Both the position numbers and the translations under genes were made by a program. This document shows positions 23,240 to 25,611 of a stretch of DNA of 27,621 nt, piece by piece. The DNA comes from a virus, in IMG/VR virus record IMGVR_UViG_3300044904_000014, positions 1-27,621 of that record; one strand, written 5' to 3'. A model generated the notes under the pieces. The model did not search any database. It was not told the DNA's origin and saw only the letters and a program-made list of their open reading frames with translations. Numbering within the stretch: the first letter of the stretch is position 1; each line of letters opens with the position of its first letter.

Positions 23240-23701
23240 TCACCGGCCCTCGGCCGCCGCGGGGGCCGCCAGCTTTGCGTCTTCAACCGCCAGTACGTTG
23301 TCACCCGCGAGCACTTCCACGACCCACGCCGCTGCGCTCGGAACCGGCAACGAATTGGGCTTGGGGTCGCCCCGTTTGTAGTGCGGGGTGTACTGCGCCA
23401 CGAAGCCGTGCCCGTTGATGTGCTCGACTGCATCACGCAGACGAGCGATGCGCCGAAGAAGTATCCTTCTCACCTCGTAGTAACTCGGCACTGGCCGTTC
23501 GCGCTCGTCCGGCCCCAACGGCGCGGCCCGACGGTTCCACGCGGCGACGGCTTCGGCCCCAGTGACATAAACGACCGGGAATCCCCCGATTAGTGCGCCG
23601 CATCCGATGCACTGAACCAGCGACCCGCCCCACGGCGCGACCGCGCCACGGTCCCCGCAGAACGGGCAGGGCGCGGGGTCGGGCCGCCGCGAGCCCGTCA
23701 C
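23240..23701 (-). CDS. Lar-like restriction alleviation protein
   Basis: A 153-aa protein with a zinc ribbon in the first 60 residues: CPFCG (C12, C15) then 'QCIGCGA' (C31, C34), followed by 'AEAVAAWNRRA', the Lar / PF14354 signature (C-P-F-C-G ... A-x-x-A-W-N-x-R). Proteins of this group blunt type I restriction or modulate methylation. The last 90 residues (helix then beta) are an addition of unknown role. GTG start overlaps the upstream stop (GTGA). Lar activity is inferred from the motif only; the family also includes proteins of unproven role. Confidence 0.7.
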   Translation of the reverse strand: MTGSRRPDPAPCPFCGDRGAVAPWGGSLVQCIGCGALIGGFPVVYVTGAEAVAAWNRRAAPLGPDERERPVPSYYEVRRILLRRIARLRDAVEHINGHGFVAQYTPHYKRGDPKPNSLPVPSAAAWVVEVLAGDNVLAVEDAKLAAPAAAEGR

Positions 23702-23901: not shown

Positions 23902-24230
23902 CGGTTCTCCTGGTCGGTGGGGTCCGGCGTGGCCGCGCGCGGGAGAGACAGTTCGCGTGCCCGCTTGCGGACGGCGCCCAGCTTTCGCAGCCAGTCGCGT
24001 GGGGCCTCGGCCAGTGGCACCAGTTCGTTTGCTCGTGGCGACGGGCGCGGAATTGAGGTGTAACCCGCGAGGTACAACTTCGCCTCGTAGCAGGTGTAGA
24101 CGTGGCGCGTGGCAGCGACCTTGACGAATCCCTCTTTGTGTCCGCCACGCTCCCACAACTTCTTGCAATACGGGCACCAGAAATGGGCATAGCCGATGCG
24201 AAGCGTAATTCTCTCGGGAATTACCCTCAC
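23898..24230 (-). CDS. Hypothetical protein with a partial zinc-finger motif
   Basis: A 110-aa protein with GTG start overlapping the methyltransferase stop. The N-terminus has 'WCPYC' and a later 'TCYEAK', with His in between, a possible but incomplete zinc site. The middle is helical (AEAPRDWLRKLGAVRKRARELSL) and the end is disordered. Function unknown. Confidence 0.6.
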   Translation of the reverse strand: MRVIPERITLRIGYAHFWCPYCKKLWERGGHKEGFVKVAATRHVYTCYEAKLYLAGYTSIPRPSPRANELVPLAEAPRDWLRKLGAVRKRARELSLPRAATPDPTDQENR

Positions 24231-25219
24231 GTCCGCCTCCCGGCGCCGCTCACGCGACAGCCCGCTTCCGTATCGAGGTAGGCGCGGATGAACTGCGCCG
24301 CCAGCGGCGCGATTATGGCGTTCCCGTAGCCCCTCAAGCGTCCGACCCGGTTGGGCGTGCCTTCGATGAGCGGCGAGAGGGTGAACGCTTCGGAATCTCC
24401 ATTGCGCAGGTATCCCAGCAAATCGGCAGGCCCATCAGCCACCGTGAGAAGCCGGGATTGAGTCGGCCGGGCTTTCCCATCGCGGCAGGGGAGCCAGACG
24501 AGATCGGACCAGGGGCCATCGCTTGCGCCGTCATCCCCAGCGTCATCCCGAAGCCGTTGCCGTTCCGACCCTTCGCCTTCTCCTCTGCGCGGCGCTCTAG
24601 CATCCGCTCCGGGTCCGCGATCTCGAACTCCTGCGCACTCGGCGTCGGCCAGGGTGCCACCAGCGCCACCGTCTTGCGGCTGCTGTCCGTGTTCCCCGCC
24701 TCGTTGTAGTCCTCCGTCGCGGGACTCAGCCACGAAGTACAGCCGTTGCCGGAGGTGCGGTGCGCCAACCCCCGCAGCGCACAAATCGGCCGCCCCGACG
24801 GCGTAGCCCATTCCTTCCAGGTCAGCCGAAACAGCGTCGAACCACGCGACGCCATCCGGACTCGCAACCTGCTCGCCAAACACGACTGGAGGGCGGCACT
24901 CGCGGATGAGGTCGGCCCATCGAGGCCAGAGATGCCGAGCATCTGCTGTGCCCCGTCGCCGGCCCGCAGCCGAGAACGGCTGGCAGGGGCAACTCCCGGT
25001 CCAGACGGGCCGCTCGTCGGGCCATCCGGCGAGTCGGAGGGCGTAACTCCAGACGCCGATGCCTGCGAACCAATGCCGTTGCGTGTATCATCGGACATCA
25101 TCTGGCTTCACCTCTGCGATGCTGCGGGAGTCCACGTCGCCCTCGGGAATGTGTCCCGCTGCCATCAAGTTCTTGAGCCACGCGCAGCAGAACGGGTCGA
25201 TCTCGTTGTAGTAAATCAC
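24227..25219 (-). pseudogene. C5 cytosine DNA methyltransferase broken by in-frame TGA
   Basis: Read through one TGA at 25088-25090, this frame encodes a phage-type Dcm of 330 codons. Before the stop are 43 codons with 'IYYNEIDPFCCAWLKNLMAAG' and '...SIAEVKPDDVR'. After it come 'YTQRHWFAGIGVWSYALRLAGWP' (SAM-binding motif I, FAGIG), 'GSCPCQPFSAAGR' (catalytic PCQ, motif IV), 'VVFGEQV' (motif VI), 'HLRQRLYF' (motif VIII) and a C-terminal 'RLRGYGNAI' (motif X). In related proteins Gly stands at the stop position, so GGA to TGA would explain it. All else is intact, so the loss is recent or an error. The first in-frame start after the TGA is a GTG at 24883, after the catalytic motif, so a restart product would be inactive. 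Confidence 0.85.
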
Positions 25220-25611
25220 TGTGCCTGACGGGCCTCGTAGAGCGCCAAGTAGGCCGCGGCGATCAGCGGCAGGTCCAACCCGTACTTCCGCTGGAACGTC
25301 TGGATGCCGTGGGCGTGCTGCTCGGCGTGGTGTGCGTGGCACCCCGGGTAACACTTCCCCCGGTCCCGCTCCGGCCCACGCGGCAGCAGCCGCTTGCCGG
25401 TGATGTGACAGCACTCCGAAGGCGCGGATTTCCCGCAGACCTGGCAGGCGAACGTCGAGATCCATGCGCGGTACTCGGGGTCGCCCCGCTCCGACGTCCT
25501 CCGAGCCTTCAGGGGCGTCGCGCGCTTCAACCCCGCCCGGTGCCCCCCCCGCCGCAGGGACTTCCGCCCTCTCAGTGTGGCGTGGCGCGCCAGCGGGCCG
25601 CTGCGCTTCAT
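25216..25611 (-). CDS. HNH / NinG-like zinc nuclease candidate
   Basis: A 131-aa protein with a basic N-terminus (MKRSGPLARHATLRGRKSLRR), the usual start of NinG- and Ref-like phage nucleases, then a zinc-like core: CQVCGK at 56-61, 'ECCHITGKR' and a 'HAHHAEQHAHG' block at about 92-102, a compact HNH-like His cluster. Probably a recombination or junction nuclease. Catalytic identity is not proven. The stop overlaps the methyltransferase start (GTGA). Confidence 0.7.
   Translation of the reverse strand: MKRSGPLARHATLRGRKSLRRGGHRAGLKRATPLKARRTSERGDPEYRAWISTFACQVCGKSAPSECCHITGKRLLPRGPERDRGKCYPGCHAHHAEQHAHGIQTFQRKYGLDLPLIAAAYLALYEARQAQ

Follow-up and report, generated by a model that had tools for sequence, protein, structure and literature searches.

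An in-frame TGA in a phage C5-cytosine methyltransferase gene that overlaps a conserved second reading frame

The window analyzed here is the whole stretch of 27,621 nucleotides that makes up positions 1 to 27,621 of the IMG/VR virus record IMGVR_UViG_3300044904_000014. The locus of interest lies on its minus strand and comprises a gene for a phage C5-cytosine methyltransferase (Dcm), its upstream neighbor, and a second reading frame, ORF2, that overlaps most of the methyltransferase gene (Table 1). Read from 25219 to 24227 (−), the Dcm frame translates as VIYYNEIDPFCC...VKPDDVR*YTQRHWFAGIGVWSYALRLAGW...GSCPCQPFS...GYGNAI...RT*, with one internal TGA. When this stop is read through, the product matches the phage family profile phrog_363 over residues 2–321 (E = 7e-76) and the Pfam family DNA_methylase (PF00145; E = 3e-14), and it contains motifs I (FAGIG), IV (PCQ), VIII (RQR), and X (GNAI) together with a VI-like motif (GEQV); the A1 and A4 invariant columns are also preserved. 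An initial annotation, made from the sequence alone, had described one methyltransferase frame split by a single TGA at 25088–25090, and the match to phrog_363 on both sides of the stop bears this out. The Dcm start codon is GTG 25219, which forms a GTGA overlap with the stop of the upstream HNH gene.

Table 1. Features of the interrupted methyltransferase locus (positions are those of the window)
Feature	Coordinates	Strand	Remark
Upstream gene, HNH-nuclease-like (phrog_1588)	25216..25611	−	stop shares bases with the Dcm start codon
Dcm frame (frame 0), phage C5-cytosine methyltransferase, phrog_363	24227..25219	−	interrupted by one TGA
N-terminal piece, 43 codons ahead of the TGA, with motif II (NEID) and motif III (GDV)	25091..25219	−	
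In-frame TGA, Dcm codon 44	25088..25090	−	begins at the wobble base of ORF2 codon 4
Motif I (FAGIG), 3′ of the TGA	25055..25069	−	
Catalytic motif IV (PCQ), 3′ of the TGA	24980..24988	−	
ORF2, 255 aa, +1 frame of Dcm, phrog_1008	24334..25101	−	ATG-ATG start; ends with TGA 24334

From the TGA up to the PCQ motif there is no ATG, GTG, or TTG in the Dcm frame, as the initial annotation had also observed. The first start codon 3′ of the stop is GTG 24883, which lies past PCQ and would give a 218-residue fragment without motifs I and IV. Ordinary translation would therefore yield no catalytic protein, and the locus, with a TGA at codon 44 and no restart, does not contain one uninterrupted frame able to give an active enzyme. 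A two-subunit (split) C5 methyltransferase is ruled out by the same position of the first start codon beyond the catalytic motif. Translation restarting at ATG 25091, in the third frame, would cover an 89-residue ORF that has no PHROG match, and inspection by eye from ATG 25101 to motif I revealed no slippery heptamer at which an ORF2-to-Dcm frameshift might bypass the stop.

ORF2 starts 11 nucleotides ahead of the Dcm TGA and is open throughout in the window, where it matches the phrog_1008 profile (E = 3e-23) and carries a WPTP motif and the C-terminal sequence LNPGFSRWLMGLP. The relatives compared consist of 28 with the protein, 80 viral loci, 80 bacterial or prophage loci, and four phage records, and the ORF2/Dcm overlap was found in 191 of 192 relatives. 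Loci retrieved by an ORF2 query contain Dcm in the same frame relation, many of the contigs being identical to those of the Dcm-based sets. Both genes are annotated in Escherichia phage K1ind2 and in PhiXhv-5, and ORF2 only in Pseudomonas phage PMG1. Under synonymous shuffling of the Dcm frame in 189 sequences, 460 stops would be expected in the ORF2 frame and 13 were observed; the third frame had 2021 stops in the same test, with 1807 expected. For the window alone, the shuffle test for ORF2 was not significant (0.085). Codon positions were examined through the ratio of third- to first-position divergence of the Dcm frame in 49 independent pairs, and an all-pairs version was also computed. 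The ratio was 4.09 (95%, 3.50–4.85) before the ORF2 start, 2.21 (2.03–2.42) in the core overlapped by ORF2, 0.80 (0.69–0.90) in the variable region, and 1.47 (1.33–1.64) in the C-terminal part. Because third positions of Dcm codons coincide with second positions in ORF2, and first positions of Dcm codons with third positions in ORF2, this shift, with its non-overlapping intervals, is the one that dual coding predicts. Moreover, the motifs of ORF2 itself, its WPTP units and a C-terminal LNPxxSRWLMG, are kept across 15 aligned sequences. Collectively, these comparisons show that ORF2, for the family rather than for the window alone, is a selected coding frame and no by-product of Dcm conservation, and that the variable region is under tighter constraint in the ORF2 frame than in the Dcm frame.

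The ORF2 protein has no Pfam match, no PDB match, and no convincing NCBIfam match; its structure model is of low confidence (mean pLDDT 52) and mostly unstructured, and its Foldseek viral matches (E ≤ 0.001) are four phage proteins with TM scores ≤0.19, one of which is named a methyltransferase. The homologues known as "Mte8-like protein" in K1ind2, PMG1_00057, and XYR92439.1 in PhiXhv-5 have the same family, position, and frame inside Dcm as ORF2, but their labels ("DNA methyltransferase," "Mte8-like," hypothetical) give neither a function nor a dual-coding pair. PHROGs likewise labels phrog_1008 "DNA methyltransferase"; neither the window member nor any of the 14 relatives aligned with it matches a methyltransferase in Pfam, and the label probably derives from the overlapping gene. 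Among open-licence PMC papers, searches on overlaps between a phage cytosine methyltransferase and another gene, on Mte8, and on phrog_1008 yielded no account of the Dcm/ORF2 pair. The WPTP-centered units vary in number in ORF2 (for example in locus L023, 311–1583), and their counterparts in the Dcm frame are LADA-type units. The Dcm variable region is predicted to be disordered; either frame, or neither, may form a target-recognition domain.

None of the approximately 190 relatives compared has a stop at Dcm codon 44. The initial annotation had proposed comparison with related phages and had named glycine as the usual residue at this position, which the 178 codon-aligned relatives bear out: the aligned codon encodes Gly in 117 and is never a stop. 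The other residues found there are E, P, D, N, A, Q, and R, with single cases of others, including Trp in one sequence; Cys occurs in none. Within this sample, the TGA at 25088–25090 is private to this phage, and Dcm is intact in nearly all relatives. The nearest relatives are only ~77% identical in core DNA, and searching viral contigs for exact 30-base matches returned no close relative of this virus, so that the age of the TGA is bracketed only loosely. Relatives identified through the terminase are ≤70% identical, and among 80 such loci only L337 has this Dcm/ORF2 arrangement.

Interruptions of Dcm at other positions do occur over an open ORF2. In locus L013 the Dcm frame has a TAG at the glutamine of PCQ, in L337 a TGA at Trp98, and in PMG1 (L192), an isolated phage, a frameshift near residue 30. 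The reverse case, an interrupted ORF2 with an open Dcm, is seen in L022, L182, L185, and a few others, so that neither gene is essential. That either gene can be lost alone suggests that Dcm and ORF2 have two separable functions. We are inclined, tentatively and at somewhat less than even odds, to regard ORF2 as an accessory protein of the phage whose role can be separated from methylation. Just downstream of Dcm/ORF2, at 23240–23701 (−) of the window, there is a weak match to Lar-like restriction-alleviation proteins (phrog_599, E = 3e-6). The surroundings of the pair may form an anti-restriction neighborhood, and the role of ORF2 is possibly anti-restriction, like that of the Lar-like neighbor.

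According to the initial annotation, the remainder of the Dcm frame showed no other decay. This view did not survive the comparison, as it overlooked both the conserved +1 frame, ORF2, that holds the DNA in place and an excess of change in the N-terminal piece. An open, conserved frame after the TGA is in fact poor evidence of a working Dcm, as much of it would be preserved by ORF2 on its own, and the N-terminal piece, which lies mostly outside ORF2, is the better gauge of selection on the Dcm frame. In that piece, 6 of 22 conserved columns are changed in the window (the family median is 0, and 1.1% of sequences reach 6); the corresponding counts are 2 of 57 for the core and 0 of 15 for the C terminus. 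First- plus second-position divergence of the N-terminal piece lies in the top 5% of the family, and its ratio to that of the core in the top 6%. The signal is modest, in the 1–6% tails, and provides moderate evidence that the N-terminal divergence reflects relaxed selection, which would favor a mutation that is real and not brand-new. Past residue 50, conserved Dcm columns show no excess of change, so that the loss of Dcm would be recent, or else hidden by ORF2.

The 43 residues cut off by the TGA had been described simply as the N terminus of the enzyme. They are indeed part of Dcm, but they are no generic N terminus: they carry the SAM-binding motifs II–III, which stand ahead of motif I. 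Structure prediction, for which one row from the phage collection was left out of the alignment, places a β-α-β unit in these residues with high confidence. In the family profile, M.HhaI residues 3–32 (motif I) fall on residues 36–65, the motif I part being weak alone, and HhaI 71–179 (motif IV onward) fall on residues 69–173, while HhaI 33–70, the stretch with motifs II–III, is absent between them. Structural alignment to HhaI (2uyc_A) gave a VIA Z of 15.7 and 2.4 Å over 167 residues, and aligned residue 1 of the model to HhaI residue 35, a start shared by all the HhaI matches listed. In addition, the N terminus from the window scored 48 against motif II of the canonical phage enzyme in L315, where the maximum of 1000 shuffles was 41; the family consensus scored 34 against the same motif and does not stand out. 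The canonical order I-II-III-IV was not found, a result that holds for the whole phage family, and we conclude that motifs II–III precede motif I in this family. Given this placement, the TGA falls at the joint of the moved segment. A circularly permuted C5 methyltransferase (type H) is ruled out, as motif X (GNAI) is C-terminal and does not come before motif I.

The explanation that we favor, with a probability of roughly 0.6, is that the TGA is a true nonsense mutation, confined to this phage, by which Dcm is abolished and the overlapping ORF2 left intact. Under this explanation the mutation would have arisen fairly recently in this phage lineage. Dcm translation from GTG 25219 would end after 43 residues, motifs II–III would be separated from motifs I, IV, VI, VIII, and X, and, judging from the stop and the lack of a restart codon, no active methyltransferase would be produced. 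ORF2, which is open in the window and conserved and selected in relatives, would presumably still be translated from ATG 25101. Since the T of the TGA occupies the wobble position of ORF2 codon 4, the mutation would change ORF2 by at most D/E; being nearly silent in that frame, it would not be removed by selection on ORF2, which would also slow the decay of the dead Dcm frame. The main rival to a genuine mutation is a sequencing or assembly error, in which case the phage would have a sense codon here and a normal Dcm and ORF2, as its relatives do. The difference is a single base, and a single wrong base is possible as no reads accompany the IMG/VR virus contig of this record; the Dcm frame is otherwise open, with conservation from residue 51 onward, and the 77% core identity and empty 30-base search mean that no close relative confirms the TGA. 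However, the N-terminal piece is unusually diverged, as relaxed selection would make it, and there are independent interruptions of Dcm over an open ORF2, one of them in the isolated phage PMG1. On balance, we consider an error unlikely.

The initial annotation had listed readthrough and control by recoding beside a nonsense mutation and a sequence error; the latter two remain, and the former found no support. If the TGA were decoded as an amino acid, a little full-length enzyme would be made, and the downstream Dcm frame is indeed open and conserved; one report (PMC7918605) also describes in-frame stops with conserved flanks in prokaryotes. The overlapping ORF2, however, accounts for the conserved downstream DNA, the TGA is kept in no relative, and the RNA fold around it is no better than that of shuffled sequences (z = 0.24). 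TGA also serves as an ordinary stop in this virus, as it ends 22 of 27 ORFs that were checked in the window, and there is no tRNA gene, hence no suppressor tRNA, in the window. Selenocysteine in particular is disfavored because codon 44 is not conserved and is not Cys in relatives. With the TGA unconserved, Cys absent, and TGA a normal stop, assignment of the gene to a readthrough or recoding class, including selenocysteine insertion and genetic code 4, was rejected, and we regard programmed decoding of this stop as highly improbable. Scarcely more probable, and equally minor, is a coupling device, in which ribosomes terminating on the 43-codon leader re-initiate on ORF2 and the methylase gene becomes an ORF2 expression unit. 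The TGA sits only 11 nt past ATG 25101, and the frameshifted Dcm leader of PMG1 also terminates near the ORF2 start, but the nonsense codons of L013 and L337 are well within ORF2, away from its start, which makes the placement of the stops inconsistent, and most relatives have ORF2 without such a stop. A more far-reaching version of the loss of Dcm, which we think rather unlikely as a whole, is that a functional ORF2, probably involved in host interaction or anti-restriction, is dual-coded in a motif-transposed Dcm across many phages, and that in this phage Dcm has been given up and the locus has become an ORF2 gene, its expression perhaps raised by the 43-codon leader.

The window enzyme shares its family and motifs with the phrog_363 C5 methyltransferases of Salmonella phage epsilon15, K1ind2, and Edwardsiella phage PVN06. 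Nearly all phrog_363 relatives checked have the ORF2 overlap, as the window does; nearly all are intact, whereas the window Dcm is interrupted at codon 44. M.HhaI and the canonical C5 methyltransferases (PF00145) have the core fold and motifs IV–VIII in common with the phrog_363 enzymes, but they are ordered I-II-III-IV, in contrast to these. Natural circular permutants of the M.BssHII type (PMC5944983) also depart from the canonical order; in these, rotation at the variable region affects the entire chain and brings motif X before motif I, whereas in the phrog_363 enzymes only the II–III segment is moved and motif X is still C-terminal. The transposition of motifs II–III is thus a C5 methyltransferase arrangement unlike the circular permutants surveyed in PMC5944983. 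The out-of-frame HNH of the ShiLan element in an actinophage methylase (PMC11855218) resembles ORF2 as a second protein in another frame. However, the ShiLan element is an inserted homing endonuclease, while ORF2 is no insertion and overlaps the core of the methylase.

The stop itself is ordinary. What is notable at this locus is a same-strand overlap of at least roughly 700 nt between a methyltransferase and an unrelated conserved protein. The overlap is present in almost all members of a widespread family of phages, and annotation usually keeps one of the two genes or names both alike. Because the variable region is more tightly constrained in the hidden ORF2 frame than in the Dcm frame, conservation and dN/dS give a misleading picture when they are computed for the Dcm frame only. 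Natural Dcm-minus cases, in which the role of ORF2 can be probed, are provided by phages whose Dcm is broken and whose ORF2 is open.

Several further loci show other rearrangements of the pair. In L179, from an Arsenophonus endosymbiont, the Dcm and ORF2 frames are both interrupted, and the pair is apparently a pseudogene in this insect endosymbiont. In L027 (3001–4606), a frame change swaps the halves, such that the N-terminal half of ORF2 (LTWKRKRTPLGR) continues into the C-terminal half of Dcm; the N-terminal half of Dcm stops, and the C-terminal half of ORF2 is in the third frame. L017 (537–2218) and L084 each contain, within one locus, two Dcm matches in different frames, each paired with a match to ORF2, which suggests that they hold two copies of the pair; in L017 the two Dcm matches stand in tandem, one after the other.
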